Source: an uncultured Clostridia bacterium
GTDB taxonomy: Bacteria; Bacillota; Clostridia; Christensenellales; UBA1242
DNA: 64,000 nt
Assembly (NCBI GenBank): GCA_944372365.1
Contig: CALVYP010000001.1
Coordinates: 187,691-251,690, forward strand
Direction: 5' to 3'
The notes under the pieces were generated by a model. It worked only from the letters and a program-made list of their open reading frames with translations. It had not been told where the DNA came from and searched no databases. Made by a program: the position numbers and the translations under genes. Shown here in pieces: positions 10,191 to 64,000 of this stretch. Position 1 is the stretch's first letter. Every line of letters begins with the position of its first letter.

Positions 10191-10217
10191 AAACAAGCCT
10201 AAGGGCTTGTTTTTTAA
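10191..10217. terminator. Two-way terminator between nucleoside hydrolase and cls
   Basis: AAACAAGCC (10191-10199)/GGCTTGTTT (10204-10212) with loop TAAG and a T tract. It reaches the cls stop codon on the other strand. Confidence 0.85.
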
Positions 10218-11671
10218 AGCAGCGGTGCAAACAATCGGAAGAACGCCTGCCCCATTTTTGAAATTATCGGTGCTTTTTTAAAGTAGCTCTCGTCTGCCAA
10301 AACCGAATCGGTTATGTCTTCTTCAAAGCATTCTAGATATTGCCTGTTAACTTCTTCACTGTAAATGATTGCCGTGCATTCAAAATTGAGCCCAAACGAG
10401 CGGTTATCCAAATTGCAGCTGCCCACCGAAAGTTTGTTGTCATCCACAAGCAGCGTTTTTGCATGCATAAAGCCATTGTAGAAATAAATTTTAATGCCGA
10501 TTTCAGCCATTTCGCGCGCATACGAAAGCGTTGACATGAAAACGGTTTTCTTGTCCGGCTTGCCCGGAAGCATTATGCGCACGTCCACTCCGCTTTTTTT
10601 TGCGATTGTAAGCGCCGAAATGAATGCATCGTCTGGCACGAAATATGGTGTTTGCAAATACACTCGCTTTTTTGCGCCGATTATCATTTTGATGTAGGCT
10701 TCTTTAATTTTTTGTAGCTTGCTGTCTGGCCCAGAAGTTATCACTTGCAGCGTTGCGTTTCCTTTAACTTCTGGCATAGGAAAATATTGCTTGATGTAGT
10801 TTTCAACTGGAGTTTTATCATTTTTTGCATAGCGCCAGTCATCTAAAAAGATGTTTTGCAGCGGATATGCGCCGCCGCCTTCAATCCTTACGCTTGCGTC
10901 GCGCCAAGGGCTGAGTTTGCGCTTCATGCCCATGTGGTCGTCACGAATGTTGATTCCGCCAGTGTAGGCAATTTTGCCGTCGATTACAACAATCTTGCGG
11001 TGATTTCGATAGTTGAGTTTTAAGTTTATCATTCTCATGTGCAAAAATGGTGGAAAAAACTCTGCCACTTCGCCGCCAGCCTTTTCAAGCTTTCTAAAAA
11101 AGCGTTTTGGCGAATTTTTGCTGCCAACCGAGTCGTAAATCAGCTTAACCTTAACACCTTGCCTTGCCTTGTGAATGAGAATTTGCATAATCTCTTTGCC
11201 CACCTTGTCGTTGGCAAAGATATAGTATTCCATGTTTATATTTTTTTTGGCGGCAAGCAAATCCTGCTTTAAAATTGCAATTTTTTCAAGGCCGTGGCAG
11301 AAAATTTTTACATCATTGCCAAGGCAAGGATATCCGCCCATATCCATGCACAACCTTAACAAGTCGCCGTCCTTGGCAAGCGACCTTATTCCGCTTACTT
11401 CCGAAAATGTTTTAAGCCCGCGAATGTTTTTTAGAACGTCGCGTTCGGAAATTGCCTTTTTCTTGATCATCCGCCTTACGCGGTGGCTGAGCCCGCTGCC
11501 AAGCAGAATGTAAAAGATAAAGCCAACACCCGGAAGGAATGTTAAAATTGCAAGCCACGCAATGATTGTTTGCGGCTTCTTTTTTTCAAGAAAAACCATA
11601 CCAACCAGCAACAGCAAGTTGATTGCGGCAAGCACACCAAACGCTAAAAACACCCAAAACGCCCAATGCAT
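10214..11671 (-). CDS. cls: Cardiolipin synthase (phospholipase D type)
   Basis: 485 residues from the ATG at 11669-11671. It joins two phosphatidylglycerol molecules into cardiolipin at the membrane. Two N-terminal membrane helices (FWVFLAFGVLAAINLLLLVG and TIIAWLAILTFLPGVGFIFY) are followed by two HKD catalytic motifs: HRKIVVIDGKIAYTGG and HAKTLLVDDNKLSVGSCN. The frame extends 13 codons further up, but those codons lie inside the terminator of the previous gene. With the chosen ATG the -10 box TATAAT ends only six bases before the start and there is no ribosome site, so the mRNA is probably leaderless. Confidence 0.92.
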   Translation of the reverse strand: MHWAFWVFLAFGVLAAINLLLLVGMVFLEKKKPQTIIAWLAILTFLPGVGFIFYILLGSGLSHRVRRMIKKKAISERDVLKNIRGLKTFSEVSGIRSLAKDGDLLRLCMDMGGYPCLGNDVKIFCHGLEKIAILKQDLLAAKKNINMEYYIFANDKVGKEIMQILIHKARQGVKVKLIYDSVGSKNSPKRFFRKLEKAGGEVAEFFPPFLHMRMINLKLNYRNHRKIVVIDGKIAYTGGINIRDDHMGMKRKLSPWRDASVRIEGGGAYPLQNIFLDDWRYAKNDKTPVENYIKQYFPMPEVKGNATLQVITSGPDSKLQKIKEAYIKMIIGAKKRVYLQTPYFVPDDAFISALTIAKKSGVDVRIMLPGKPDKKTVFMSTLSYAREMAEIGIKIYFYNGFMHAKTLLVDDNKLSVGSCNLDNRSFGLNFECTAIIYSEEVNRQYLECFEEDITDSVLADESYFKKAPIISKMGQAFFRLFAPLL

Positions 11672-11677
11672 AACTAT

Positions 11678-11705
11678 ATTATAACCAATATTAAAAAAAT
11701 GCCAA
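11678..11705 (-). promoter_or_regulatory. Promoter of cls, predicted leaderless
   Basis: Reverse strand TTGGCA (11700-11705), 16 bases, TATAAT (11678-11683), then six bases to the ATG. The -35 box overlaps the stem of the preceding terminator. Confidence 0.7.
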
Positions 11706-11729
11706 AGCATTTTGCCTTGGCATTATTTT
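11693..11729 (-). terminator. Terminator of the giant surface-protein gene
   Basis: On the reverse strand AATGCCAA ... TTTGGCATT followed by seven T, 32 bases after the giant gene's stop codon. It also has T residues on the forward side. Confidence 0.8.
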
Positions 11730-14700: not shown

Positions 14701-17700
14701 TTTTTTGTTCCAGCCGTCTGGTTTTGTATCAATAATCTCAACCGAAAGTTCTGCGTCGCCAATGTTGGCGGCCGTAAGTTTTTCACCCGTTGAAGCAAAG
14801 GTTATGCCTGCAAGTTCCGAAAGTTTGTAGTAAGAGTTTTTGTGTGCTTCAACTTCAACAATCGTTGGTGAAGCGGCTGAATATTCCATTTCCACGGTTA
14901 TGTCAAGCTTTTTAACAAGCGTCAAGGTTGTTGCGCCAGCGCCTGTGGTTGATTTAAGATTATATGTGACTGTGAGTTTCGCTGTTTCGTCTTTGTCCCA
15001 AATTCCATCTTCGTCAACATCCCCATCTTCGTCAACATCCAAGACGTTATAGTATGTAATATCTGTGCTTGTGATTAAAATTGAGTTGCCATCGTTGGTT
15101 GCATAGTGATATTCAACCCTGCCTGCAAGCCTTGAGAAGGTTATGCTGCCATCTGCAATCTGCACATTGCCAATGCAAATGATGATGTCAACTTCTTCTT
15201 CTTTCCCTTCTTCAACCAGTTTAAATGTGTCTCCTACTTGCTTGAGGCCGTTGTTGCCGTGGTCGACATAGATTGTGCTGTTAAAATAGGTGCTGCTCAT
15301 CTTAAAGGATGTAAGGAACGTTCCAAGGTTGGTTTCGTCATCAGCCTGCGTTTGGTTTTTTGACCTTGCGTAAATTGAATAGATGCTGCCGTTGCTTGCG
15401 TTTTCGGTTACATTAAGCTCCAGCAGCCTGTATCTGCCGCCCAACTCGTCTGTGTTTGTGCGGTCGGCATAGATCACTTCGGTTGTGCCTACTTTGTTGA
15501 TTGTTGCGTTTGGCGTTGATGTGATCAGTTTGTCAAACGCATAGATTGTGTATTGCGCAACCACGCCTTTGTATATAATTTGAATGGTTGCATAGCTAAG
15601 CCCCGCTTCTGTTCCGCGTTTGATTGTTAGGTCGTCACCGTTTCGCGTAACTGTGATGTTGCTTGATTGAACAACTGAGAAGGTGATTTTGCTCACTTCT
15701 TCTGCTGCAATTTGTGACGCGGCTCCTAATCCTGCATCTGTATATGCTTGCACGGTGAACCTTGCTTTGTCTGCAAACAAAGCTTTGCCGGTGAAGAATC
15801 CTTCCACCGTTGCTGTGTCTGTAGTTGTGCCTGTAGTTGGGTCTGTAGTTGTCGCTTGGATTGATTCATAGCCAAGGCTTTTGCCAGCAGGCGCTGGATA
15901 GTTGACTGAAATTTTAATCGCCGGAGTTACAACCAACGAAATTTGCGTTGTCAAAGTGAATAAGACTTTTTTATCAACTTTTTCTACATAATTAAACACA
16001 ACCGTAACAGAAGTTGGCGTGTTTGCCCCAACATATTCTGGTGTAATGTATAATTTTGCAGTCTCTGAATTATATGTTACGCTGCCCGCTTTAACAATGT
16101 TTGCGTCTTGAGGCGTAGCCGAGATTGTGAAGTTTTTCATGTCATCGCCTGTAATCTCTCCACCATTTATCGTATCCACAAAGTATGTTAAAGCGTCAAT
16201 CTCCTTCGTTGTGCCCGCAATTATGCTGCCTGCATTATATTCTTTAACCCCTACCATGTTTGCCTGTGCCGTGTAGGCAAAAGTTACATGGCCATTATCT
16301 CTGCCCACTTTATATGTGAATTTTAATTTAAATTCTTGGTCTTCAATAGCGTTTTCAAGTGTGATTCCTGTTGCGCCGTTGACAGTGACATAGTTGTTTG
16401 TGGTATCGTTTCCAGCATCATCGACAACTTGTATGCCGGTAATAGTAGCGCCTGCATCTTCGCTTAATGTGATAAGGCCGCTCGTTTCCACAGTGTTTCC
16501 TGCAGTAAGAGTGGTGGCCGCCTGAGTTGCCTCAACTGTGGCAGGAATCAAAACATTAAGCGTTGCGGTTGGTGAACCATTGACTGTGAAGTAGATATGA
16601 TATGTTGTGTCTTGCGGCACAAAGGCTGGCTGGGTTATTGAGAGTGTGAAGTTTTCCTTATCGTATTCAACAGTATATCCGTCTTTTATTACAGTCCCAT
16701 CTTCCGTTTCTGTTTTTAGTGGCAAATCGTGAGTTATTGTTGTGGTTACCCTTGCCGTGTCTACATTGCTTTCGCCGCCAGTTGTGCGCTGCTTTGTGAC
16801 TGCGTTTATTGTTTGTTTTGTTTGTGTTTCTTCGCCTTCTTCGCCGCGTGAAAGCGTCCATGTGTCGCCATCAAGCGTGCCATTGTTTTCATCTGGATTT
16901 GTGTATTCAATAAAGTATTCCACCGACTGAGCGTTGATTGAGAAGGAATAGGTTATATCGCCGCCGTAAACTTGGGTGTAAGAGCGCTCTAACACAACGG
17001 TTATGTTTTGCCCACTTACATTTTTGAAGATAACCTTCATGCCTTCAAGTTTAACGCTGAATCTTGCATCGTTTGCCTCTAAGCCATCTGGGCTTATTGC
17101 AATCACATCGTTGCCAATTTTCACTTCCTTGATTTTTAAGGTTGCGTCTTCGCTTACATCGCTTGTTCCAAACATATCGGAAATTCTTGCTACGCCTGGA
17201 TGCTGAGTGTCATCGCCCATTTTGTCGTTAAGAACAATTTCTTTAATCGTTGGCTGCTTTGCCGTGCCTGCATCCATTTCAACAAACTCACTTGTTGAGC
17301 CGTCAAACGGATAGGTAGGCTGTGCGATGATGCCATCTGATTCGATGATAAGGTTGTAGTTATATTTATATGAATGATTGCTTTTAGACTGCAAAATTTC
17401 AATGTAAGCTTGAATGTAACCGTCGGTGCAGACGCTGTTGTCTATATGCTTTACAATAAGTTCTGGAACATTGAAAGTTGAGTTTGTGGCAATTCTCATA
17501 AAATCTTCAAACTGATTTGGCACTGAAAAATTCACTAAGTAGCTGTTTTCTTTAGCGCCAAGCCCTGTCAAAACCGTCTTGCCGCCCAGGCTTGCAATTT
17601 CCAAGCCAAATGCACCTTCTGCGAAGGAGTATTCTATCCCCTGCAACTCTTCCACTTGATAAAGCCCGATGTTGTAAACTTCGCCTGCTTGCTCAAGGCT

Positions 17701-20700
17701 TTCAAGATAAAGCGTATATGATGTTTTGCCTGAGTCGTCTGTAACTGTCAATGTGAAAACATCTCCAACGCCAACCGCACTTGGACTAATCTCTACGCCT
17801 GTGGCTTGTCCAACAAGAGAAAAGCTTAGTATTAGATCATTGCCGTCGCTGAGCCCGATTTCAAATTCTTTGTTGTCGATAGTGAAACTTGCGTTTGTGC
17901 CAGATAATTTGCTGTTGATTAAATAAATTTTATTGTCTTCTGTGCTTTCATTGCCTTTTGTGCCTTCAACAATGATATAATCCTTATCGTTTATTTTGTC
18001 AGGCAACGCCAACAAGTAGCTTTTGCCCGCATCAATTTCAAACGGAGCGTGCGTGCCGTCAAGAATTTCTTTTAAATCATCTTCTGTATTTTGATAGGAT
18101 GCAAATCTATCGCCCACCGCCGAAATTAAAATTGGCACTTTGATGCTTGCAAAATCGCTGTTCCCGCTTGTGAATCTTATGCTTATATAGTATCTATCGC
18201 CAACAGAAATTTCATTTGCTAAAACAAACGCCAAAGATCTGCTGTTTGGAGTGGTGGCTTGGTTGTTGCTGTAAGCGTTGCGGTTTTCGCCTACTGTAAC
18301 CGAAATTGCTTCCGAGCCGGATCCCGTTTCGCCAGAAGTTATTATTATGTTGTTGAATATTTCGGTGCTGTTTGCCACCAAAATCACCTCTCGGTTATCA
18401 TAGAACACAGTGTTGCCAAGCCAGTCGCCCGCGCCGTTGTCGATCATGTCATCAACAGTTATGCCAATTTGAATGTTGACATCGGCAGAAGCAATTTCTA
18501 TGCCGTCGTCATCGCGCATTGAAACAACAACCTGTTTGGACATTTCGCCGTAATCATATTCTATACCTTTGTTTAATTTGATGGAAATGTCGGAAACCGT
18601 GCCTGTGTCGTAAACCGAAACAGTTTTGTCAAAATTTAGATATCCTGATTGGTCTATAAATTCAAAGTTTTCTAATTTGTAGCCAAGGTCATTAGTATAA
18701 ACAAAGTCATTATTGTTGTTGTTTTCTGTTATGCGTTTTAAAGCAAGAATGTTGGCTATGTTGTATTTGCCAGCAGTCAGATACAAATCTTTTAGTGACA
18801 GCGTTATCTCTTCACCCACATCTTTTGCAGTCAGCTCAAAGTTTGGCAAAATTGTCACACTGATGCTGCGATTGTAGGCATATGGATTGCCATTGCCATC
18901 GCCATCAAACAACGAATATAACACAAATGTTTTTGTCACCGGCAACTGCACATCGTTGAAAATAAGATATATTCCTTCTGTAAACTCGTCTGGAACTGCT
19001 GCAAGGTTCTGAATTGTTGCAATCTCCGATCCGTCATCAGCTCGCAATTTATATTCTGTATCCTTATAAGCGCCCACATCGCCCCATGAGAAAGTTGAGC
19101 CTTCTACATTGACTTTTAAGTAGCTATCTAGATTTATCTTATATCCTGAATACACAACTATATCAGCAAGCTGCCCTTCGCCGGTTGGTTTATCCTGCTC
19201 ACGAACGCCGCTTTCAACGCCTTTAATGTTGTAATTTATGTTGCCTAAATTGTTGATGCCGTCACTTGCCACACTTGTGATGTTTAAGGTGAAATTGAAA
19301 TTAAGCGTTCCTTGCTCGTTTGCCGCATTAAACAAAATGCTTACATTTTGCCCAAAATTGTGGTTGATTTTCACTTGGTTTATTTCGCCTTCGTAAGTTG
19401 TGTCACCACCATTGAATTCAAACATATCCCAAAGCGACTCATCTTGCTCGCTTATGGTGAATTGCGAAATTTTAAGATTGTAGGCATCCGAATTATATTT
19501 TCCAGCGCTTACATAAACTTCAATAAGGTCTTTAAGCGTAACATATTCGCCAGCTTTGCCCGCCATTGTATATTGCGCAGATGAAATGCTGTCTTGCTTA
19601 ACGCCGCCCACCTCAATTGAAGTGATGCCTGTGCTTTTTGAATTTATTGTGAAAGTAAACTCTTGCCTGCCTGCCCTTACTGTTATGCCAACATCTTTGC
19701 CAGCAGGATCAGATGCACCAAATGTGACATTGTGGTTGCTGCCTTCGGAGCTGAAACTTACAACCGAGTTGTCGTCAGAAACAATTTCATAGGCATATTC
19801 AAACTGCCTGCCGTATTGATCCTTGATCACCATGCCGCCAGTTCTTTCGCCTTCTTCATTTGTTATGCCGTTGATCAGTTGGTTAAACGCTTCAACGCTG
19901 TCCAGCATAACCGGCTCTTGCCCTGTTTTGTTGCCGACGATTGAAATGCTGCCATTGCCATTGGTTTGCAGGCTTTGCTGCACATCAAATTTCCAGCCTT
20001 CAAGCCTGTCGTTTGAAATTGATGACGGCGTTTGATTGTAAACCCTGATTGCGCCATAGAAGTCGCCTTCGCCAGTAGGCTGAGCCACCCAAACATTAGT
20101 GTTTATCGAGTTGTTGTAGGAAATGCAAACATAATAATCTTCGCCATTCAATTCTGAGACGCTAAAATTTGAAACGCCAACTTGAATTGTAACTTGATTT
20201 CCAACCACTTCTGGCTGGCCAAACGAGAACACTCCGTCTTTTGCTCTTTCGCCGGTGGCGTCTTCCGCTGCATAAAATTTAATTCTGCCTGCGTTGTATT
20301 CTTGCATGAAAATTTCACTGTCGCCATCCACAAGCGTCAAGTTAAGAGTAAACGCTTCTGCCGTGCCGGTTGGAATTACAAAGAAGTTTCCGCCTTCTTG
20401 ATTTAGCCATTTTTCTTCAACCTGCAAGTTGTAGGCTTCTAAGCCTTGCAGCGTTTTGTCAACCGAAACAGAAATGCTTGTTGAAACTTGTTCAAGCATA
20501 TATGTTCCAGAAGTTGTTTTAAGCACGTTGCCATAGGCGTCTGTTCGCACCGTGGCAAAAATTAAGTAGAAATCTATGGTGTCTTTAACGATAAGCTCGC
20601 CGCCCATAAGCGGATATAAATAAGCGCTTGTGCCGTTAAATTGATATCTGCTGCTGCCTTCTTTGCTTACCGAAACATAGTCGGCAAGAGTTTTGCCTTC

Positions 20701-22293
20701 TGGAAGAGCGCTGCTTTCGTCAATGTAAACAAAGAAAATCTTTTTTTGATAAATGTTGCTGCTTGGAACATTTGAAACAGTGTTTAAGTCTTTTTCATAT
20801 TGCGCAGGAATGGTGTTGCCGTTTTCGTCGTAGATTATCGAAAGAGAAAGCTGCTCTTCTATATCTCCCCAAGTGACCGCATCTTCCGTGCGTTCTTCGG
20901 TTTCAAAATAAACCAGCCTTTGTGTTTGCTTATCAAAAACCTGCTTTTGACCTTCTTCATTTTCAATTATAAGCACAACTTCCAGCACAAAATCGTGGCT
21001 GCCGGTTGTGGAAACTTCCCAATATGCGTGGTTAAGGTTTTTTACATCCGAGTTGAACAACACATAGCTTGCTTTTTCTTCACCATCTTCAATCGTGACA
21101 GTTTCACCACCTTTGATTGTGACTTCGGTTGAGTTTTCATCTGGTGTTTTGCCGTCGATTGTAAACACTCTTACGCCAACGTTCTTTATCAACGCCGAAA
21201 CAACATTATCTTGCATGTCGATGATTTGTGCGTTGATTGTTGCATCTGAAAGTGCGCTTGTGCCAGCAGAGACGCGGAAGAGTTTGTTTGTTGTGATTTT
21301 AAGCGATGAAGAAGATGTGTCGTTGATTGTAAACGATCTCACATTTGCCTCAACGATGTCAATTGAAACTGAGGCAGAAACTGCGTCTTCTTGCGTTGAC
21401 AAAACGCGGATTGCCTCGTTATACAATGGCTGCCCCGATGTTTGGCTGTTTTCTTGATAGAAAGATAATTGCTGCGTTGCATTTGCAAAAGCATAGCCGT
21501 TGATTATGTTGTTTTTAGAAGGCTCTTCGCTTGCGATGAAATATACATCGCCGCCGTTATAAACAAACGAAACGCCGTTTACTGACTCTATGTTTGAAGG
21601 TCTAAAAAACACTTGTTTTTCACGCTTTTGAGTGACGGCGGTGTTTTTGTCGTCACTGAAAAGGTATTTGCTGTTTTGCGGATAGAACTCTGTTTGAATT
21701 TCAAAGTTTGTGTTTTCTGCAATCTTGTTTCCTGTTTGGAACACTTCGCCAGTTGTGCTGTCAACAAGATTGAATGATATTGCATGAACAGGCACATCTA
21801 CCGCAATTTGGATTGTGGTTGATGAAAGCAAATTGTTTTCGGTTGTGATTACAAGCGATGAAATTCCGCCCACATTGCTTTCGTATGCCAGCCCATCATT
21901 ATCAACAAGCCCTGTTTTAACTGGCTGGATTGTAAACTCTTCACCCAAAGTTACTTGTTTAGGAACAATGATTGTTCCGTCGCTTATCGTGCCGTTTTCT
22001 TTATCTTCAACAACTTGCTTGCCAGGGGCGAAATTTAGCGTAACATTTCCATTCGTCACTCCTTCGGTTGGAGAAGTTATCTTCAACTTAAAAGCATCCA
22101 CAATTTCATATTGTGAATTTTGCGAGTTGTAGGTTGAATCTAAATCGTCAATTACAATCGACTGTGGATAAACCAGTTGAGGCCTAAACCCTGTGGTTAA
22201 ATAAACAGCCAAAACGCTGCCGCCTATTGCTAAAACAAAAATCGCAACAAGTATAACCACCAACTGCCATGTTTTAGGTGCTTTTAATTTCAT
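11761..22293 (-). CDS. Giant secreted or membrane-anchored surface protein (3510 aa)
   Basis: One uninterrupted 10.5-kb frame. The first 40 residues form a basic start (MKLKAPKTW) and a strong hydrophobic helix (VVILVAIFVLAIGGSVLAVY), either a signal peptide or an uncleaved anchor. Everything after it looks extracellular: Thr/Ser/Asn/Gly-rich, almost no Cys, and long runs of alternating hydrophobic residues with motifs such as AGKEYVTL, TVNGSPTATLNV or KAGDYTV typical of stacked Ig-like/cadherin-like beta domains. Around residues 2410-2430 there is a D-x-D-x-D-G calcium-binding-like run (VDEDGDVDEDGIWDKDE). There is no LPXTG motif, dockerin or wall-binding repeat at the C-terminus (it ends GFIIITLV). 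Ribosome site AAGGGGTGAT supports the ATG. Function unknown; adhesin or surface stalk are inferences. Confidence 0.85.
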   Translation of the reverse strand: MKLKAPKTWQLVVILVAIFVLAIGGSVLAVYLTTGFRPQLVYPQSIVIDDLDSTYNSQNSQYEIVDAFKLKITSPTEGVTNGNVTLNFAPGKQVVEDKENGTISDGTIIVPKQVTLGEEFTIQPVKTGLVDNDGLAYESNVGGISSLVITTENNLLSSTTIQIAVDVPVHAISFNLVDSTTGEVFQTGNKIAENTNFEIQTEFYPQNSKYLFSDDKNTAVTQKREKQVFFRPSNIESVNGVSFVYNGGDVYFIASEEPSKNNIINGYAFANATQQLSFYQENSQTSGQPLYNEAIRVLSTQEDAVSASVSIDIVEANVRSFTINDTSSSSLKITTNKLFRVSAGTSALSDATINAQIIDMQDNVVSALIKNVGVRVFTIDGKTPDENSTEVTIKGGETVTIEDGEEKASYVLFNSDVKNLNHAYWEVSTTGSHDFVLEVVLIIENEEGQKQVFDKQTQRLVYFETEERTEDAVTWGDIEEQLSLSIIYDENGNTIPAQYEKDLNTVSNVPSSNIYQKKIFFVYIDESSALPEGKTLADYVSVSKEGSSRYQFNGTSAYLYPLMGGELIVKDTIDFYLIFATVRTDAYGNVLKTTSGTYMLEQVSTSISVSVDKTLQGLEAYNLQVEEKWLNQEGGNFFVIPTGTAEAFTLNLTLVDGDSEIFMQEYNAGRIKFYAAEDATGERAKDGVFSFGQPEVVGNQVTIQVGVSNFSVSELNGEDYYVCISYNNSINTNVWVAQPTGEGDFYGAIRVYNQTPSSISNDRLEGWKFDVQQSLQTNGNGSISIVGNKTGQEPVMLDSVEAFNQLINGITNEEGERTGGMVIKDQYGRQFEYAYEIVSDDNSVVSFSSEGSNHNVTFGASDPAGKDVGITVRAGRQEFTFTINSKSTGITSIEVGGVKQDSISSAQYTMAGKAGEYVTLKDLIEVYVSAGKYNSDAYNLKISQFTISEQDESLWDMFEFNGGDTTYEGEINQVKINHNFGQNVSILFNAANEQGTLNFNFTLNITSVASDGINNLGNINYNIKGVESGVREQDKPTGEGQLADIVVYSGYKINLDSYLKVNVEGSTFSWGDVGAYKDTEYKLRADDGSEIATIQNLAAVPDEFTEGIYLIFNDVQLPVTKTFVLYSLFDGDGNGNPYAYNRSISVTILPNFELTAKDVGEEITLSLKDLYLTAGKYNIANILALKRITENNNNNDFVYTNDLGYKLENFEFIDQSGYLNFDKTVSVYDTGTVSDISIKLNKGIEYDYGEMSKQVVVSMRDDDGIEIASADVNIQIGITVDDMIDNGAGDWLGNTVFYDNREVILVANSTEIFNNIIITSGETGSGSEAISVTVGENRNAYSNNQATTPNSRSLAFVLANEISVGDRYYISIRFTSGNSDFASIKVPILISAVGDRFASYQNTEDDLKEILDGTHAPFEIDAGKSYLLALPDKINDKDYIIVEGTKGNESTEDNKIYLINSKLSGTNASFTIDNKEFEIGLSDGNDLILSFSLVGQATGVEISPSAVGVGDVFTLTVTDDSGKTSYTLYLESLEQAGEVYNIGLYQVEELQGIEYSFAEGAFGLEIASLGGKTVLTGLGAKENSYLVNFSVPNQFEDFMRIATNSTFNVPELIVKHIDNSVCTDGYIQAYIEILQSKSNHSYKYNYNLIIESDGIIAQPTYPFDGSTSEFVEMDAGTAKQPTIKEIVLNDKMGDDTQHPGVARISDMFGTSDVSEDATLKIKEVKIGNDVIAISPDGLEANDARFSVKLEGMKVIFKNVSGQNITVVLERSYTQVYGGDITYSFSINAQSVEYFIEYTNPDENNGTLDGDTWTLSRGEEGEETQTKQTINAVTKQRTTGGESNVDTARVTTTITHDLPLKTETEDGTVIKDGYTVEYDKENFTLSITQPAFVPQDTTYHIYFTVNGSPTATLNVLIPATVEATQAATTLTAGNTVETSGLITLSEDAGATITGIQVVDDAGNDTTNNYVTVNGATGITLENAIEDQEFKLKFTYKVGRDNGHVTFAYTAQANMVGVKEYNAGSIIAGTTKEIDALTYFVDTINGGEITGDDMKNFTISATPQDANIVKAGSVTYNSETAKLYITPEYVGANTPTSVTVVFNYVEKVDKKVLFTLTTQISLVVTPAIKISVNYPAPAGKSLGYESIQATTTDPTTGTTTDTATVEGFFTGKALFADKARFTVQAYTDAGLGAASQIAAEEVSKITFSVVQSSNITVTRNGDDLTIKRGTEAGLSYATIQIIYKGVVAQYTIYAFDKLITSTPNATINKVGTTEVIYADRTNTDELGGRYRLLELNVTENASNGSIYSIYARSKNQTQADDETNLGTFLTSFKMSSTYFNSTIYVDHGNNGLKQVGDTFKLVEEGKEEEVDIIICIGNVQIADGSITFSRLAGRVEYHYATNDGNSILITSTDITYYNVLDVDEDGDVDEDGIWDKDETAKLTVTYNLKSTTGAGATTLTLVKKLDITVEMEYSAASPTIVEVEAHKNSYYKLSELAGITFASTGEKLTAANIGDAELSVEIIDTKPDGWNKKDLVYQNDDGSAYLLFTNITGGEGDNKVVYDFYLYAQGCSVDGDYAAVKFTYEISGVSESFIIIVKIIPDYQVTIAGNVVAEAGNVYEDADSKTGEDYYVSNQQRPYEFTPVVTGEGKETTYKAMTLASSEQPTDQLISVVRQNWNATNIAYSFNYKITVQTDGTGYNAESTIGKLMLQKPLKKPDNKPADYWEGSGTSAGSVYTKTGDVSIAPASVVFGTKSYMVELSDNFGYIIRFYFNLVPSSDQQPVVYESASAATFTEGTPFDVGLVYDSIAVQKADSETGTQASVTVNRSLTPNTQDVSSIILQNIDAWGYTTAGVQRDDAPGIDGKYYNAPTFANVTITNITFRFDESTAKDVPIQNVQMLKDLYNTTCDAMPGQGVSYNGVEYTYNPTANGIQLTTSLQVIAKEEAVAGKDEKVTKYYIYMNGATDPTGDPIGEDEDGYRYEVTFGENGDIATINKKAVTNNNGTYTISGATTMSFKVRKQGTNTYLNFTFTGTGKEIYLDLEEDPTNYTTEEASTTRLATDVTLAPLYTTPQAGTNTASLGAWTDVYRDISAAYFKVPIMPGWIYGTSDSANVTIYITLQYAVEGTGGTTNTETCQVAYNATIVKNIRISSKSRVVVDAVGFNLEDKISVSNQGTAPTGKAVYYDDTLVVVVPKQGQVTLTVTFGSGDSAVEKITPITNTNYTRKVSNYVSLSELYGKTLDPSVPIKVTWSTDNLDEAAVYYHSVEDSVETTMKDEETKEPIWMDVATYPSIAANTETPVKLVPVTRDVLYIEHAGRISGSDSFQVRKSYIVGVNYGSEDNPDMQYYQYRHDYLVTSRYTYFSDGLTGGDTVYEIEGITEADKTDKGYEVEFSEWAGNIRVYKATDGDSGGIALDPAGSDLTDAWQVSLRYEVAKLNDDDPNPPTASFGGETGDERKTLYTGADYQIGKNQYIRINIYVKASHGVGQWEQTLWEGDDEYDKLLGFIIITLV

Positions 22294-26811: not shown

Positions 26812-27525
26812 TTACTTAAACATCTTCGTCTTTCTCACAAGCCCACTCCAACCAAACAGCAGCCTTACCAAATCGCTCCAGTAAGTTAGTCTTGCGCTAT
26901 TTAAAAATTTTTTTACATCTTTCATAACACTGTTTGGCAAAAATTTGTTTAAGTTTTTGATCGCGCGCTTAGAAGCATCTTTTTCCAAACTGATTGTAAC
27001 ACATTTGACCACCACCGCAAACACAAAGATCGCAGCCGCAACGCTGCCGCACACTATCGCCCAAACTAAATATTGCGGGAAGAATAGTAGCACTATCGCC
27101 GCGATGATCGCTGGCAAAAACAGTTTTCCAAGCACCCAACCTATTTTATGAAACACCCCAAGCACCACAAACTTTTTGCTTGCAAAATCTTGCTCCGCGT
27201 GGCCAAGTTCATGCGCAACTATTGCAAACGCTCCTGCCGAGTTTGAAGAAAGAGTTTTATCCGTTAAAATTAACACTTTGTTTTTGTGGCTATAACCATC
27301 GCCTGCAATCTTTTTTGTTCTTGCAATTTTAAGCTTACCATCAAAATGTGAATAGTTTTGCTCGTTTATATATTCAATTATTGTTTTATGCGCCTGCGCA
27401 GGAGTTTGGAACATCTTGTTATACATCGCCAAAAATCTGTCATAAGAAAAGTTGCCGATCGCCAAAATCGCACTAAGAAACGCCACAACCGCAACAACAA
27501 TTAAAATAATAACCCAAATTTCCAT
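26812..27525 (-). CDS. Second YugP-type zinc membrane metallopeptidase
   Basis: 237 residues, same architecture as the 25821-26540 protein: N-terminal membrane helix, AQAHKTIIEYI, SHKNKVLILTDKTLSSNSAG, the zinc motif VAHELGHAEQD at about 104-114, two central helices and EKDASKRAIKNL. The two proteins differ enough to be an old duplication, not a recent one. No ribosome site precedes the ATG; instead a good promoter has its -10 box six bases before it, so translation is probably leaderless. The -35 box overlaps the stop codon of the upstream penicillin-binding protein gene. Confidence 0.87.
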   Translation of the reverse strand: MEIWVIILIVVAVVAFLSAILAIGNFSYDRFLAMYNKMFQTPAQAHKTIIEYINEQNYSHFDGKLKIARTKKIAGDGYSHKNKVLILTDKTLSSNSAGAFAIVAHELGHAEQDFASKKFVVLGVFHKIGWVLGKLFLPAIIAAIVLLFFPQYLVWAIVCGSVAAAIFVFAVVVKCVTISLEKDASKRAIKNLNKFLPNSVMKDVKKFLNSARLTYWSDLVRLLFGWSGLVRKTKMFK

Positions 27526-27531
27526 GCGTAT

Positions 27532-27560
27532 ATTTTAACACGCACCGAATTTTTTATCAA
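27532..27560 (-). promoter_or_regulatory. Promoter of second protease gene, predicted leaderless
   Basis: Reverse strand TTGATA (27555-27560), 17 bases, TAAAAT (27532-27537), then ATACGC and the ATG. Confidence 0.75.
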
Positions 27561-30501: not shown

Positions 30502-32283
30502 TTATTGAAACTCCGGCGATCCCGGCCACTGCGATTCTTCATGCAAGTTTGAAATTGCAACATGGAACGCATAGTTTGTTGTTGTGTCGCCCGGTGTTTT
30601 GATTACATTAAAGGCAATTTCAAGATAGCTGCCTTCAATGCGGCTTTCGTCTAAAACGCCATATCCGCCATAGGTGGTGCTTTCAATAACTTTGTAGTAT
30701 CTTCTTGCATCGGTAAAGCCTGTGAGTGTGAGTTTATGTCCCATCTCTTCAGTTGTTTTAAGTGCATCAGGCTCGTTAAACTTGCCAATTTCAACAACTT
30801 CGCCAAACTCGGTTTCAAGCTCTATTTCAAGCGTTGTGCCGTCTTCAAGCGGATCGGCCGGGCCGTCATAGACGCGCATGGTTTTTTTGGCTTCTCTAAT
30901 TTCGCTGCCGTCGCCTTTGTTCCACCTTGCGATGACTTCAATGTCTAAATAAAGATTTTCGTCGTAAATTTCTCTGCCGTCGCGGTTGGCGTCGTATTCA
31001 AAATCAAGCCAAATATCGGTTATGCGAATGGTTGGGTTCTCTTCGGTGACAAGCGGCATAAGCACAAAGCTTTGATATTCGCTTGGCTTAACGCCAAATG
31101 CTTCCAAGTATGCAAACGGCTCTTGGTCAAACGCCGTCATAAACGATGTTGCTGGAAAATCCATAACTTCACTTGCCATAAAGCTGTCACCAACGGTGGT
31201 TTCGCCTTCGCCGGCTTCTTCATTTGCTTGGCCGATTGTGGTTAGCGTTCCGCAATAGTCGACGATTGCTGAAACAACATCTTCATAGTAAAGATCGTAG
31301 AAATAAGGCAGGCTTTGCGCGGTTTCGCCGATGATTTCATCCAAAATAAATTGAGCGATTGCGGTTTTGTTGCGCTCGGTTAACCCAACATAACTGCCAA
31401 GTTGGTTGAACAAAAGTTTAACATTCGCCAAAGCGACTTCGGCACTGGTTTGGTCGGCGGTGGCTGCATAGCCTTCCACCGAAAGAACTGGCGAGCCAGA
31501 AGAATAGTCAACCGACATCGCCGCCGGTTCAAGCCCAAGCACCAACGAATAGATTGCATATGTCAAGCCGTTTATGTAGTCTTCGTTTACATAGGCGGAT
31601 TGGAAAGCGGTTGGGTCAAAATAATCTGTTCCCAGTGGCTGTCCGCCTGTATAAAACTCATTAAAATATGAATATGTAAATTGTGTTTCAGTAAAAGTGT
31701 TTGAAACCAACGCACCATTTTCTTGCTCGCTTGAATTTAACCCATAAATCAAAGCAGGATAATTTGTTGCATTTGCCGTTAGCGCCCAATTCCAACCTTT
31801 GGAAGTGTCGGCGGTGACAACATAGTTTTGCGTTTCTGCATCTTGATTTACTGATGAGATTTGATAGCGGATTGCATCATAAAAATAAACAAAGTCATCT
31901 GGATTGGTTTCAAACTGCTGTGCAAGTGCACCTATCTGGGCGTTGTTTGTTTCTTGATACAAAAAGCCAAACAAATCATCTCCTGCATATGTACTTGTAT
32001 TAAAATTTCCATATGTATAAAATAAATATGAGAGAACGTCTTCTGCATATGAAAAATAAAAATCTGTAGTCCCGTCATTTTCTGGAACATTTTCATCAAA
32101 GGAATAAGATAGCGGCTTGCGCAGCACCTTAACGCCTTCAAGGCTGATGCCCGTGTCCCAATCGGGTTCGTCTGGATCGGAGCCAGCACACCCGACCAAC
32201 GAAAAACACAAAATCGCAAGCAACACGATTTGGAAAACCCTGACAAGGTTTGTTTTTAAATTTAATTTTGTAAACGCTTTCAT
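30502..32283 (-). CDS. Large lipoprotein, function unknown
   Basis: 593 residues. Signal peptide of about 32 residues (VFQIVLLAILCFSLVG) ends in lipobox LVGC, so it is a surface lipoprotein. The body is acidic and rich in Tyr, Phe, Glu and Asp, with stretches such as YFSYAEDVLSYLFYTYGNFN, an alpha-helical middle part and a beta-type C-terminal third (YLDIEVIARWNKGDGSEIREAKKTMRVYDG). No family comes to mind. The start codon is ATG with a promoter whose -10 ends six bases before it; the only ribosome-site-like bases (AAGG) are too close, so initiation may be leaderless. Three copies of a 12-base motif lie upstream of the promoter. Confidence 0.85.
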   Translation of the reverse strand: MKAFTKLNLKTNLVRVFQIVLLAILCFSLVGCAGSDPDEPDWDTGISLEGVKVLRKPLSYSFDENVPENDGTTDFYFSYAEDVLSYLFYTYGNFNTSTYAGDDLFGFLYQETNNAQIGALAQQFETNPDDFVYFYDAIRYQISSVNQDAETQNYVVTADTSKGWNWALTANATNYPALIYGLNSSEQENGALVSNTFTETQFTYSYFNEFYTGGQPLGTDYFDPTAFQSAYVNEDYINGLTYAIYSLVLGLEPAAMSVDYSSGSPVLSVEGYAATADQTSAEVALANVKLLFNQLGSYVGLTERNKTAIAQFILDEIIGETAQSLPYFYDLYYEDVVSAIVDYCGTLTTIGQANEEAGEGETTVGDSFMASEVMDFPATSFMTAFDQEPFAYLEAFGVKPSEYQSFVLMPLVTEENPTIRITDIWLDFEYDANRDGREIYDENLYLDIEVIARWNKGDGSEIREAKKTMRVYDGPADPLEDGTTLEIELETEFGEVVEIGKFNEPDALKTTEEMGHKLTLTGFTDARRYYKVIESTTYGGYGVLDESRIEGSYLEIAFNVIKTPGDTTTNYAFHVAISNLHEESQWPGSPEFQ

Positions 32284-32289
32284 AGCCTT

Positions 32290-32318
32290 AGTATAACAAA
32301 ACGCAACAAAAAAAACAA
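32290..32318 (-). promoter_or_regulatory. Promoter of the 593-residue lipoprotein gene
   Basis: Reverse strand TTGTTT (32313-32318), 17 bases, TATACT (32290-32295), six bases before the ATG. Confidence 0.6.
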
Positions 32319-43494: not shown

Positions 43495-43599
43495 GGCAAC
43501 TTGGCGTTTTGCTTGCAAAGCAAAACCGCCCGCCCGCGTGCCGCAGGCCGCGTGGCGGGCACAAAAGCGCGCCCGCGCTTTTGCCAAGTTGCCTTTTTT
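43495..43599 (+). terminator. Cloverleaf-shaped terminator after dut
   Basis: A 99-base, almost fully paired four-way junction begins one base after the dut stop. Outer stem GGCAACTTGGC (43495-43505)/GCCAAGTTGCC (43583-43593), then three hairpins: GTTTTGCTT-GCA-AAGCAAAAC (43506-43526), a GC-rich one with loop GCA (43528-43560; GCCCGCC...GGCGGGC), and AAAAGCGCG/CGCGCTTTT (43563-43582). Only three bases separate these parts. Six T follow directly. It stands out by its GC content and would also end transcription. Confidence 0.85.
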
Positions 43600-43600
43600 A

Positions 43601-43629
43601 TTGCATCAACCGCGCAAATATGCTAAACT
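43601..43629 (+). promoter_or_regulatory. Promoter of the 146-residue protein gene, predicted leaderless
   Basis: TTGCAT (43601-43606), 17 bases, TAAACT (43624-43629), then six bases to the ATG at 43636. Confidence 0.65.
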
Positions 43630-43635
43630 AAACCT

Positions 43636-44076
43636 ATGGCATGGTGGAAAAAACTTTTAATTTGGCTTGGCGGCGCAGCAGCATTTTGTGTGCTGATTTT
43701 TCTTTTATTTCACTATCTTTCATCCAATGCTGAGTATGCACAGATGTCGCTTGGCCGCTACAACCTTACATCCATCACCCAAACTGATGCCGACGGCAAC
43801 CAAACCACGATTCAAGAATTTGAAAACGGCGAATTTTACATTGTTGTTGAAGAAGATTTTATGATCATAAGCCACTCTGGCGAATATGGCATATTGCCGA
43901 ACGATGGCGGCTATCAATACTTTTTGCACGGGATTGAGCTTATTGTGTTAACACCGCAAGACGGCGGCACTCTCGCCTACACAGGTTTGTATCAAGACAA
44001 CACAATCAGCATCCAAATAACTAAGGACAATATAACAACTTGCTACAACTACATTTTAGATAAAAACAGCGAATAA
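43636..44076 (+). CDS. Membrane-anchored extracytoplasmic protein, unknown function
   Basis: 146 residues. MAWWKKLL precedes one helix (IWLGGAAAFCVLIFLLFHYL); the remaining 115 residues are outside and beta-rich, with repeated short strands (YNLTSITQTDADGNQT, FENGEFYIVVEEDFMIIS, GEYGILPNDGGYQYFLHG, LAYTGLYQDNTISIQIT). The pattern resembles small beta-barrel or lipocalin-like domains, but I cannot name the family. No ribosome site is present; the -10 box TAAACT ends six bases before the ATG, so it is likely leaderless. Next gene on the same strand is nrdG with its own promoter. Confidence 0.8.
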   Translation: MAWWKKLLIWLGGAAAFCVLIFLLFHYLSSNAEYAQMSLGRYNLTSITQTDADGNQTTIQEFENGEFYIVVEEDFMIISHSGEYGILPNDGGYQYFLHGIELIVLTPQDGGTLAYTGLYQDNTISIQITKDNITTCYNYILDKNSE

Positions 44077-44089
44077 AAGCATCAAACTC

Positions 44090-44118
44090 TTGACTTTTTT
44101 GTTTATAAATTTTAAACT
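44090..44118 (+). promoter_or_regulatory. Promoter of nrdG, predicted leaderless
   Basis: TTGACT (44090-44095), 17 bases, TAAACT (44113-44118), then TTTAAT and the ATG at 44125. Confidence 0.8.
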
Positions 44119-44124
44119 TTTAAT

Positions 44125-44811
44125 ATGAAAATATATGGCTTTGAAAAACTTTCTATGGTGGATTATGACGGACATTTGTGCGCCACAATTTTTACTGGCG
44201 GATGCAATTTTAGGTGCCCGTTTTGTCAAAACTCCGACCTTGTAAATGTTACAAATTTAGAGCAGTATGGCGAAGATGAAATTTTTGCGCACCTTGAAAA
44301 ACGCAAAAATATAATTGACAGCGTTTGCATCTCAGGCGGCGAGCCAACCCTTAATCCAGACCTTAAAGACTTTATTAAAAAAATAAAAAGCCGCGGCCTG
44401 CTTGTCAAGCTTGACACCAACGGCACAAAGCCAGAGCTTATTAAAAACCTTATTGAAGAAGGGCTTGTCGACTATGTGGCAATGGATGTAAAAAACTCGC
44501 GAGAAAGCTATCAAAAAACTGCTGGCGCGATTGTAGATCTTGATGCAATAAGCCAAAGCATTGAACTATTAAAAACAAACATAGTGCCATATGAGTTTCG
44601 CACCACTCTTGTCAGTGGTCACCACACCAATGAAAGCATTGAAGAGATGGGCAAATGGCTGGACGGCGGTGAAAAAATATTTTTGCAATGCTTTAAAGAT
44701 TCTGGCAGCTGCCTGCAACAAGGCTTGCAAAAAATCACAAAAGACAGAGCGCTGATATTTAAAACAATCTTGCAAAAATACATAAAGAAAGTTGAACTTA
44801 GAGGTTATTAA
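44125..44811 (+). CDS. nrdG: Anaerobic ribonucleotide reductase activating protein
   Basis: 228 residues. A radical-SAM enzyme that installs the glycyl radical in NrdD. The iron-sulfur ligands are in GGCNFRCPFCQN (CxxxCxxC, about residues 27-34), followed by SAM-binding segments CISGGEPTLNPDL and LDTNGTKPE. Length and the early position of the cluster fit the NrdG2 type. Its target is presumably NrdD at 46295-48664, 1.5 kb away on the opposite strand, so the pair is not in one operon. No ribosome site; the -10 box ends six bases before the ATG. A terminator follows. Confidence 0.9.
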   Translation: MKIYGFEKLSMVDYDGHLCATIFTGGCNFRCPFCQNSDLVNVTNLEQYGEDEIFAHLEKRKNIIDSVCISGGEPTLNPDLKDFIKKIKSRGLLVKLDTNGTKPELIKNLIEEGLVDYVAMDVKNSRESYQKTAGAIVDLDAISQSIELLKTNIVPYEFRTTLVSGHHTNESIEEMGKWLDGGEKIFLQCFKDSGSCLQQGLQKITKDRALIFKTILQKYIKKVELRGY

Positions 44812-54757: not shown

Positions 54758-56619
54758 TATTTGCTCTCCTTATGCTTTTTAATCAAAACACCAAGCACCG
54801 CAATATCGGCAGGGGACACGCCAGAAACTCTGGACGCCTGACCTAGGTTTGCCGGCTTGACCGCAGCAAGCTTTTGTATGGTTTCAATTTTTAAACCTTT
54901 TTGCGAAGAATAATCAAAATCTTCTGGAATCGACTGACTTTCCATCTTTTTAAGTTTTGCAATATCTTCTTCTTGTTGTTTTAAGTATCCCTCATATTTT
55001 GTGATAAGGTTGACTTCGTTGATAATTTCATCATCAAACCCTTCAAAAACATTAAATTCCGCATTTAATTTAAACGCATCAATATTTGAGCGCTTTATAC
55101 ACTCTTTTAAAGAAATTGAATTTTTTGGCGGATTTTCGTTATTTTTTTTGAAAAAATTGATTGTTTTTTCATCAATTTTTAACTTTTGTTTTAAAAGTAA
55201 AGAAATGTTTTGTAATTTTTGTTTTTTATCTAAGAATATTTTATATCTTTTATCATCGACTAGTCCAACTTTTCTTCCGATTTCTGTAAGTCTTAAATCG
55301 GCGTTGTCTTGCCTAAGAGAAAGACGATATTCCGCACGGCTTGTCATCATGCGATATGGCTCTTGCGTTCCTTTTGTGACAATGTCATCAATCAGCACGC
55401 CGATGTATGCGTCGCTTCGAGATAAAATAAGCGGCGGCTTGTCTTCTAAGTATAGCGCCGCGTTTATACCAGCAATCAAACCTTGCGCTGCGGCTTCTTC
55501 ATATCCGCTTGTTCCGTTTATCTGTCCAGCAAAAAACAAACTTTCATGCAATTTGCTTTGCAAAGAAGCTTTAAGTTGCAAAGGGTCTATGCAATCATAT
55601 TCAATCGCATAGGCGTCACGCATGATTTCTGCGTTCTCCAAACCTTTTAGTGAACAAATCATCTGTTTTTGAATGTCGGAAGGCATAGAAGTTGAAAAAC
55701 CTTGGATATACATCTCGTCGGTTGAAAGCGCTTCCGGCTCTAAAAATAGCTGGTGACGATCTTTATCTGCAAAACGAACAATTTTTGTTTCAATAGAAGG
55801 GCAGTATCTTGGCCCTATTCCTTTTATCTCTCCTGAGATGGCGGGTGCTTTATCTAAATTATCTAAAATAATTTTATGTGTTTGTGGGTTTGTGTAAGTT
55901 AAATAGCAATTTGCTTTATTTTTTATAGGTTTTTTTGTTAAAAATGAAAAAGGCTGTATATTTTCTTCGCCTTGCTGCAGTTCAAGACCTTCAAAATTTA
56001 TGCTTCTTTTGTTCACTCTTGCAGGCGTGCCAGTTTTAAACCTTAAAAGTTTGTATCCTAATTTTGAGAGAGAGGACGAAAGCTGTTTGGCGTTTTTAAA
56101 TCCGTTTGGCCCAACGCTTTCTGTGTAGCTTCCAATAATAATGCGGCTATCAAGATATACGCCGGTTGCAAAAACCACAACTTTTGCTTCGAATTCGTCT
56201 CCGACAGCTGTTTTTACCGTTGTTGAATTCTTTCCAACCGTGATTTTTGTTGCTTCCGCCTGTTTTAAAAATAAATTTTTTGTGCTTTCAACAACTTTTT
56301 TCATCTGTGTGTGATAGTTGACTTTATCGGCTTGCGCGCGCAAACTTTGAACAGCTGGGCCACGACCGCGATTGAGCATGCGAATTTGAATTGCGGTTTT
56401 ATCGGCAATAATTCCCATTTCTCCGCCAAGCGCATCAATCTCGCTTACAAGCTGGCCTTTTGCCGTTCCGCCGATGGATGGATTGCACGCCAAAAAAGCC
56501 ACTGCATCTAAACTTATTGTCAAAAGCAGTGTTTTGTGTCCTTTTCTTGCAAGCGCAAGCGCAGCTTCACAACCAGCATGCCCCGCGCCGATTACTATTG
56601 CCTGATAACTTTCTTTCAT
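54757..56619 (-). CDS. mnmG: tRNA uridine-34 carboxymethylaminomethyl modification enzyme MnmG
   Basis: 620 residues from the ATG at 56617-56619. The frame continues 29 codons upstream but that part overlaps mnmE, and family homology starts at ESYQAIVIGAGHAGCEAALALA. An AGGA site lies before the ATG, and the start overlaps the mnmE stop (TAATG). MnmG with MnmE modifies U34 in tRNAs that read split codon boxes. FAD motif GAGHAGCE, the GTPARVNKRSI segment and C-terminal QASRVSGVSPADIAVLGVLIKK are all present. Typical length. Confidence 0.96.
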   Translation of the reverse strand: MKESYQAIVIGAGHAGCEAALALARKGHKTLLLTISLDAVAFLACNPSIGGTAKGQLVSEIDALGGEMGIIADKTAIQIRMLNRGRGPAVQSLRAQADKVNYHTQMKKVVESTKNLFLKQAEATKITVGKNSTTVKTAVGDEFEAKVVVFATGVYLDSRIIIGSYTESVGPNGFKNAKQLSSSLSKLGYKLLRFKTGTPARVNKRSINFEGLELQQGEENIQPFSFLTKKPIKNKANCYLTYTNPQTHKIILDNLDKAPAISGEIKGIGPRYCPSIETKIVRFADKDRHQLFLEPEALSTDEMYIQGFSTSMPSDIQKQMICSLKGLENAEIMRDAYAIEYDCIDPLQLKASLQSKLHESLFFAGQINGTSGYEEAAAQGLIAGINAALYLEDKPPLILSRSDAYIGVLIDDIVTKGTQEPYRMMTSRAEYRLSLRQDNADLRLTEIGRKVGLVDDKRYKIFLDKKQKLQNISLLLKQKLKIDEKTINFFKKNNENPPKNSISLKECIKRSNIDAFKLNAEFNVFEGFDDEIINEVNLITKYEGYLKQQEEDIAKLKKMESQSIPEDFDYSSQKGLKIETIQKLAAVKPANLGQASRVSGVSPADIAVLGVLIKKHKESK

Positions 56620-57938
56620 TATTTTCCTACGCAAAATTTTGAGAATATAACAGAGATTATATCTTCGTTTTCTGTTTCTCCTGTGATTTTTCCAAGTGTG
56701 TTCCAAACATTTTTGATCAGCATAGACAAAATTTCTAGGCTTTGATTTTTTTGTTTGAAAACCTCATTGATTTGTTTTATCGCTTGATTTATGTGTTGCA
56801 TCTGTCGCTCATTTGTAACAACAAGCCCGTTAAAATCAATACTCTTTTTTATTGCAGTTTTAAATATTTTTTCTTTAAGTTTTTCTATGTTTTTATTTTC
56901 AAGCGCTGAAACTTCAATTTCGTTTTCTTGCTTTGCCAGCTTGCGCGTTTTATCTTGTTTGTTTATAACAGAAATAAATGGTTTTTTAATTATTTTTTTA
57001 ATATTTTCATCATTTTTTGTTAAATTTTCACTTCCATCATAAATTATTAAAACAATATCGCACTCATCAAGTGTTTTTTTGCTTTTTTCTATTCCAATTT
57101 TTTCAACTGCATTGTCGCTTTCGCGAATGCCTGCGGTGTCGTAGAAATTTAGCCTTATGCCGTTGTAGTCTATACTTGCTTCAACAACATCTCGAGTTGT
57201 TCCTTCGATGTCTGTGACTATAGCCTTATTTTCTCCCACAAGGGCGTTGAGCAGACTGCTTTTACCCACATTTGTTTTTCCAACCAAAGCAATGTTTATT
57301 CCGTTTTTTATAAACCTTGATTGGTTTGCTTGATCTAAAATTTGTTTTAAAAGCTGCCTGTTTTCATCAAGGGTTTTAAAAATTTCGTCTCTTACAATTT
57401 CGTTTTCATCTTCTTCGGGATAATCCATGCTCACTTCAATGTGCGCAAGCAGATTTGTGAGAGAAGTCTGTATGTTTTTAATCTGCTGATTAAGTTTTCC
57501 GCTTGCAAGAGAGAGCGCGCTTTTAAGCTGCGCTTCGCTTTCGCTGTTTATTTCTTCTACGATTGCTTCTGCCTCGTCAAGAGAGATTTTTGCGTTTTCA
57601 AACGCTCGTTTTGAAAACTCTCCCGGTTGAGCTAAGGTTGCTCCGCCTTGGATAAGTTTTTCTTGAATAAGGCGCGTAACGGTTACTCCGCCATGAATTT
57701 GAAACTCGACAACATCTTCGCCCGTATATGAAAAAGGCGCTTTAAAATATGCCATCAAGCATTTTTCTTTAACATCACCCAAATCAAATTGTCCAAGCAC
57801 AAGCTTGCGTGGTTGAATTTGACAGTTGCAATTAAAAAATTTAAGTGCTATTTTTAGCGCTTGCTTGCCACTCATTCGCACAATACTTATAGCGCCTTTG
57901 CCAAGCGGTGTGGCAACGGCTACAATTGTGTTTTCCAT
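56619..57938 (-). CDS. mnmE: tRNA modification GTPase MnmE
   Basis: 439 residues. Partner of MnmG. N-terminal folate-binding domain (TIVAVATPLGKGAISIVRMSG, SYTGEDVVEFQIHGG), then a GTPase domain with P-loop GKTNVGKSSLL near 217, switch EGTTRDVVEA, DTAGIR and NKQDK, and the C-terminal cysteine motif FCVGK. No ribosome site is found; the -10 box TATAAT ends seven bases before the ATG, so the mRNA is probably leaderless. jag upstream has its own terminator, so mnmE-mnmG-rsmG form a separate transcript. Confidence 0.95.
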   Translation of the reverse strand: MENTIVAVATPLGKGAISIVRMSGKQALKIALKFFNCNCQIQPRKLVLGQFDLGDVKEKCLMAYFKAPFSYTGEDVVEFQIHGGVTVTRLIQEKLIQGGATLAQPGEFSKRAFENAKISLDEAEAIVEEINSESEAQLKSALSLASGKLNQQIKNIQTSLTNLLAHIEVSMDYPEEDENEIVRDEIFKTLDENRQLLKQILDQANQSRFIKNGINIALVGKTNVGKSSLLNALVGENKAIVTDIEGTTRDVVEASIDYNGIRLNFYDTAGIRESDNAVEKIGIEKSKKTLDECDIVLIIYDGSENLTKNDENIKKIIKKPFISVINKQDKTRKLAKQENEIEVSALENKNIEKLKEKIFKTAIKKSIDFNGLVVTNERQMQHINQAIKQINEVFKQKNQSLEILSMLIKNVWNTLGKITGETENEDIISVIFSKFCVGK

Positions 57939-57945
57939 GAGTTTT

Positions 57946-57973
57946 ATTATATCACAATAACAAAATTTTTCAA
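57946..57973 (-). promoter_or_regulatory. Promoter of mnmE, predicted leaderless
   Basis: Reverse strand TTGAAA (57968-57973), 16 bases, TGA-TATAAT (57946-57951), then seven bases to the ATG. Confidence 0.78.
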
Positions 57974-63880: not shown

Positions 63881-63892
63881 TATAATAATAAA
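63881..63892 (+). promoter_or_regulatory. -10 element of recF, predicted leaderless
   Basis: TGA-TATAAT (63881-63886), an extended -10, then AATAAA and the GTG start. No convincing -35 and no ribosome site. Confidence 0.6.
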
Positions 63893-64000
63893 GTGAAAAT
63901 AAAAAGCCTTAAACTTAAAGATTTTAGAAACTATCAAAGCGCGCAAATATCTTTTTCATCGGGCGTAAACTCTTTGGTGGGAAAAAACGCACAAGGTAAA
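63893..64000 (+). CDS. recF: RecF, DNA repair protein (5' part, cut by window edge)
   Basis: 36 codons are visible from a GTG start: KIKSLKLKDFRNYQSAQ, then ISFSSGVNSLVGKNAQGK. The LKLxxFRNY start and the Walker A beginning GKNAQGK are diagnostic for RecF, which loads RecA at gaps and stalled forks. The rest lies beyond the window. It reads divergently from dnaA rather than following dnaN. No ribosome site; the -10 box ends six bases before the GTG. Confidence 0.9.
   Translation, partial: MKIKSLKLKDFRNYQSAQISFSSGVNSLVGKNAQGK

Follow-up and report, generated by a model that had tools for sequence, protein, structure and literature searches.

Leaderless genes have been predicted in 56 of 209 Firmicutes genomes, at a mean of 4.2% and with a concentration in Lactobacillales and Mycoplasma (Zheng et al., PMC3160421). 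In the same survey, five Mycoplasma genomes averaged 18.3%, Actinobacteria 19% and Deinococcus-Thermus 39% (PMC3160421). The Deinococcus-Thermus genes share the arrangement of -10 box and start codon described below, which is far more used there (PMC12340547). Among clostridia with mapped transcripts, the leaderless fraction was 2-3% (PMC9045289) or about 2% (PMC6873888), and 15 leaderless genes were reported in C. difficile (PMC7438776). In C. phytofermentans, 4% of starts are leaderless; these are mostly secondary starts, the Shine-Dalgarno (SD) site is mostly retained, and most candidates have a further promoter upstream (PMC5171806). A sequence-only reading of the DNA studied here had described leaderless mRNAs as rare in Bacillota, which is correct for the mapped clostridia (2-4%) but not for Lactobacillales and Mycoplasma, where they have been predicted repeatedly (PMC3160421). 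Among the papers searched, none linked the term 'leaderless' with Christensenellales.

The window, that is, the whole 64-kb stretch of DNA that was analysed, belongs to the genome of an uncultured Clostridia bacterium (862,550 bases in 8 contigs, rated 100% complete). The sequence-only reading had listed seven genes in the window with a -10 box six or seven bases before the start codon. All seven boxes lie where it placed them (Table 1), at six bases from the start codon in six genes and at seven in mnmE. An SD site before the start codon was absent in all seven genes, and inspection of the upstream sequence bore out the earlier statement that nrdG lacks one.

Table 1. Predicted leaderless genes of the 64-kb window and their promoter elements
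Feature	Position	Strand	Basis
cls (PLDc_N, two PLDc_2), predicted leaderless start at 11671	10214..11671	-	domain matches
cls -10 TATAAT, 6 bases before ATG 11671	11678..11683	-	sequence
Second YugP-type protease gene (Zn_peptidase_2), predicted leaderless	26812..27525	-	orthologues leaderless in G348, G352
Second YugP-type protease -10 TAAAAT (TGT-extended), 6 bases before ATG	27532..27537	-	sequence
Second YugP-type protease -35 TTGATA, 17-bp spacer	27555..27560	-	sequence
593-aa lipoprotein-like gene, predicted leaderless	30502..32283	-	sequence
593-aa lipoprotein-like gene -10 TATACT, 6 bases before ATG	32290..32295	-	sequence
146-aa gene -35 TTGCAT (layout TTGCAT-17-TAAACT-6-ATG)	43601..43606	+	sequence
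146-aa gene -10 TAAACT (TGC-extended), 6 bases before ATG	43624..43629	+	sequence
146-aa gene, predicted leaderless	43636..44076	+	homologues leaderless in L220, L224
nrdG -35 TTGACT (layout TTGACT-17-TAAACT-6-ATG, ATG at 44125)	44090..44095	+	sequence; kept in L218/L219
nrdG -10 TAAACT, 6 bases before ATG	44113..44118	+	sequence
nrdG-type gene (NrdG2 family), predicted leaderless	44125..44811	+	TIGR02495
mnmE, predicted leaderless, also in about 50 relatives	56619..57938	-	TrmE_N match
mnmE -10 TATAAT (TGA-extended), 7 bases before ATG	57946..57951	-	sequence
mnmE -35 TTGAAA, 16-bp spacer	57968..57973	-	sequence
recF -10 TATAAT (TGA-extended), 6 bases before GTG	63881..63886	+	sequence
recF start (GTG), cut by window end	63893..64000	+	sequence

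The start codons in Table 1 are anchored to different degrees. Position 1 of the TrmE_N profile falls at residue 4 of MnmE, indicating that the mnmE start codon is right, and positions 2-191 of TIGR02495 align to residues 3-189 of the nrdG-type product. The 146-aa product matched no Pfam family, and its start codon is backed by alignment only. The 593-aa lipoprotein-like product likewise matched no Pfam family, and homology gave no confirmation of its start codon. Upstream of cls, a terminator-like hairpin (11692-11723; ATGCCAA..TTGGCAT) is followed by T7, and judging from the letters, TTGGCA in its 3' arm (11700-11705) may double as the -35 element of the predicted cls promoter. A 95-base element with 65% GC (43498-43592), followed by a T run, precedes the 146-aa gene. 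It is predicted to fold as a closed three-hairpin structure (-58.8 kcal/mol), is single-copy in this genome and has a 76% identical copy near nrdG in a related genome (G341). An Rfam search with this element gave no match; it is possibly an elaborate terminator.

The distance from -10 box to start codon, a genome-wide check proposed in the sequence-only reading, was plotted for 20 stretches of 20 kb, of which 72 kb were N; with the window, this sample covered 392 kb and 305 genes called by a simple home-made gene caller. Distances (d, in bases) were taken from a strong extended -10 box to each plausible SD-less ATG or GTG start. The plot bore that reading out, with a sharp peak at 6-7 bases: at the strict cut-off, 25 genes fell at d = 6 and 5 at d = 7, against a mean of 1.67 per distance at d = 9-44 (P 7e-19). 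For ATG starts alone, the counts were 23 and 5 against a mean of 1.08. Moreover, none of the 463 internal ATGs tested had a strong -10 box at d = 6-7. Across the whole genome, TATAATN{5,7}ATG occurred 58 times versus 14 for the reversed control, and TATAATN{6,7}ATG 44 times versus 24 for TATAATN{11,12}ATG. When such raw pattern counts were extended to 147 genomes from the class and 200 from the phylum, background in the larger genomes swamped them, and gene-level tests were used instead.

The excess at d = 6-7 corresponds to 8.7% of genes at the strict cut-off and 10.5% at a looser one, a share that varies with the score cut-off and the gene caller. By this measure, about 9-10% of genes have the leaderless layout. 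A promoter of their own would fit upstream of about 224 of 298 genes, so the leaderless type may account for roughly one in seven promoter-bearing genes. At a cut-off of 10, chance yields 3.5 matches per distance, and several low-scoring members of the candidate list are probably such matches.

With the A of the start codon as the reference point, the consensus reads TTGaaA at -35 to -30 (T 92%, T 69% and G 51% at -35 to -33) and TATAAT at -12 to -7, with TG upstream of the -10 box. These are the textbook promoter positions relative to a transcript start. The -35 element played no part in the selection, yet 22 of the 30 strong cases match TTGACA in at least four of its six bases at a spacing of 16-18 bp, and the -35 consensus was seen again in the pooled relatives. 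Among SD-less starts, a box at d = 6-7 preceded 28 of 298 ATG, 2 of 151 GTG and none of 266 TTG start codons. Family models begin at residues 1-6 of MnmE, LepA, MiaB, YsxC, Ung and NrdG2, and these six start codons therefore cannot sit much further downstream. At the sequence level, five marks of a sigma70-type bacterial leaderless gene were found, namely an abutting -10 box, no SD site, a -35 element, a bias to ATG and a start supported by homology.

It is conceivable, but unlikely, that these transcripts carry very short leaders of 1-5 nt, with the transcript start slipping by a base or two. The spacing at mnmE, which ranges over 6-8 bases in the relatives (d = 7 or 8 in L025, L026 and L070), is in keeping with such slippage, whereas the main peak lies at exactly 6 and would put the A of ATG at +1. 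In practice the mode would be the same, since no SD site fits in 1-5 nt.

The coexistence of two initiation modes, also proposed earlier, agrees with the gene-level data: an SD match of 5 bases or more precedes 60% of genes, and the genome retains an intact anti-SD sequence. Loss of the anti-SD was accordingly rejected as a cause of the leaderless mode. Loss of bS21 was also considered as a cause and rejected, bS21 being kept in 29 of 29 genomes tested. A possible functional theme is that many of the predicted leaderless genes serve tRNA, the ribosome or DNA repair (mnmE, miaB, lepA, rsmD, ysxC, dusB, recF and ung).

The nearest relatives, identified by an MnmE scan of named genome contigs, are uncultured Clostridia metagenome-assembled genomes of 0.8-1.3 Mb with MnmE identities from 79% downward; 'Christensenella sp. 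UBA1242' (L056) falls within the same MnmE clade. All five clade members sampled (G341, G329, G345, G348 and G352; small samples) showed the 6-7-base peak, the leaderless excess amounting to 3.6-7.0% of genes under the strict cut-off. The peak was absent in one genome of the same family (G284), one of the same order (G235) and two of the same class (G317 and G294), and weak in another outgroup (G316). Very large genes were also observed in the reduced 0.86-Mb genome under study: a 3510-codon open reading frame occupies 11761-22293 of the window (minus strand), and further frames of about 6318 and 3730 codons lie on contig C1 near 74412 and 259775.

The leaderless state is conserved gene by gene. 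Specifically, TGnTATAAT precedes the mnmE ATG by 6-8 bases in about 50 genomes, the most divergent of them at 48% protein identity, whereas mnmE of the outgroups has a leader and an SD site. Overall, mnmE was scored as leaderless at 52 of 80 MnmE loci, including one doubtful call with the ATG 9 bases after the -10 box (L064), and this state required 5 changes on the MnmE tree versus 23 with shuffled labels. Seven relatives have a leaderless recF, with ATG as the start codon (L035, L039, L043, L048, L060, L066 and L078). Inside the clade, 20 of 37 orthologues of the leaderless set were themselves leaderless, a figure that understates the true share because distant paralogues are among the 37; in two outgroups the count was 0 of 8. 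Of the orthologues of SD-led genes, 1 of 255 was leaderless. In the alignments, the start codons of the orthologues coincide (offset 0). A conserved leaderless start was also observed in one subclade (L055, L057, L058, L059, L062, L065 and L068) for a protein of about 320 aa (MLKN..KYxKLKPIDL..GIST), whose gene mostly lies just upstream of mnmE. Outside the main clade, two distant genomes that are Mollicutes-like or unplaced (L086 and L093) have TATACT 7 bases before the GTG of mnmE, possibly an independent case of a leaderless mnmE.

Individual genes switch between the two modes. In the two close relatives with the upstream region present (L218 and L219), nrdG is leaderless. In L220, L221, L222 and L224 it is SD-led and lies 2-12 bases behind the homologue of the 146-aa gene; in two of these operons (L220 and L224), the first gene, the 146-aa homologue, is leaderless and the second, nrdG, is SD-led. 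Since nrdG is leaderless in the closest relatives and SD-led within an operon farther off, the leaderless mode appears to follow a gene's position at the head of a transcription unit. Similarly, ten relatives (L240-L247, L250 and L252) have a leaderless miaB and several others an SD-led one.

The leaderless genes also differ in their gene gaps. Among genes of this genome that follow a codirectional neighbour, 8 of 20 leaderless genes have an upstream gap of 27-45 nt versus none of 76 SD genes (P 1e-6). In the pooled relatives the counts were 8 of 28 versus 4 of 278, and the outgroups had no such difference. Leaderless starts could be a stable, inherited second mode of expression tied to genome compaction in this clade: a gene at the head of its own transcription unit would give up leader and SD site for a promoter that just fits a gap of 31-41 nt, and would return to an SD site once inside an operon. 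We put this extension forward tentatively and hold it to be somewhat less probable than its opposite.

The gaps and the conservation also bear on the suggestion that these genes are led but simply lack an SD site, with transcription starting farther upstream and the box at 6-7 bases being a non-functional AT-rich match. The genome is 60% A+T, led genes without an SD site are common in some bacteria (PMC5397173), and low-scoring matches do arise by chance, as the background count given above illustrates. However, neither composition nor chance would yield a sharp peak at 6-7 bases or an aligned -35 element at 16-18 bp, nor would chance matches be restricted to start codons and conserved in divergent genomes; moreover, where the preceding stop codon lies 31-41 nt away, a separate promoter plus a leader would not fit. 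We therefore consider this explanation highly improbable. Least credible of all is a misassignment of start codons, with a real -10 box and translation from a start further downstream, behind a short leader and an SD site of its own: the list does include poorly conserved membrane proteins and lipoproteins whose N-terminus is not fixed by homologues, but the family models reach the first residues of the six proteins named above and orthologue starts coincide.

Leaderless transcription from an abutting promoter is thus the preferred reading. As far as can be judged from DNA, it is very probable that a subset of genes has a housekeeping-type promoter from which transcripts begin at the start codon, without a leader, and are read directly by the ribosome. 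The promoter (TTGACA, 16-18 bp, TGnTATAAT) lies where transcription would begin with the A or G of the start codon. The resulting mRNA would have neither leader nor SD site, and its 5'-terminal AUG would be read directly, presumably by 70S ribosomes with initiator tRNA, by analogy with leaderless mRNAs elsewhere. Genes inside operons, and most others, would rely on SD sites. In the cases examined, a leaderless gene would start its own transcription unit, often in a gap just large enough for the promoter. A second promoter further upstream may be compatible with a -10 box abutting the ATG. Within this clade of small-genome Clostridia, each gene inherits its mode separately and can switch, and selection for compactness may have favoured the leaderless one.

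These observations extend abundant leaderless expression to a lineage of Clostridia, a group in which transcript mapping had found it rare. Additionally, nrdG, miaB and mnmE provide orthologues that are leaderless in one species and SD-led in another, and exchanging the natural upstream regions within such pairs makes the origin of leaderless genes and their ribosome requirements testable. Programs that rely on SD sites to predict gene starts may place them wrongly in these genomes.

Compared with known systems, the genes described here resemble those of Actinobacteria and Deinococcus-Thermus in combining a -10 box just upstream of the start codon with the lack of an SD site, and in coexisting with SD-led genes (PMC3160421, PMC3898074, PMC12340547). 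Unlike in those phyla, the share is lower (about 9-10%), the consensus is low-GC with a clear -35 element and a TGn extension, and the lineage is one of Clostridia. Lactobacillales (the Lactococcus-Streptococcus and Oenococcus-Leuconostoc groups) and Mycoplasma also belong to Bacillota in the broad sense and share TATAAT with a TG extension (PMC3160421); however, Lactococcus probably lacks a -35 region (PMC3160421), whereas a -35 element was seen here in most cases and in a different, uncultured lineage. The mapped clostridia are of the same class in the broad sense and have the same promoter type, but their leaderless genes are rarer, whereas the genes described here lack SD sites and have a conserved leaderless state. 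The present case is therefore a new instance of a known phenomenon and stands out by its lineage, its abundance and its deep conservation.
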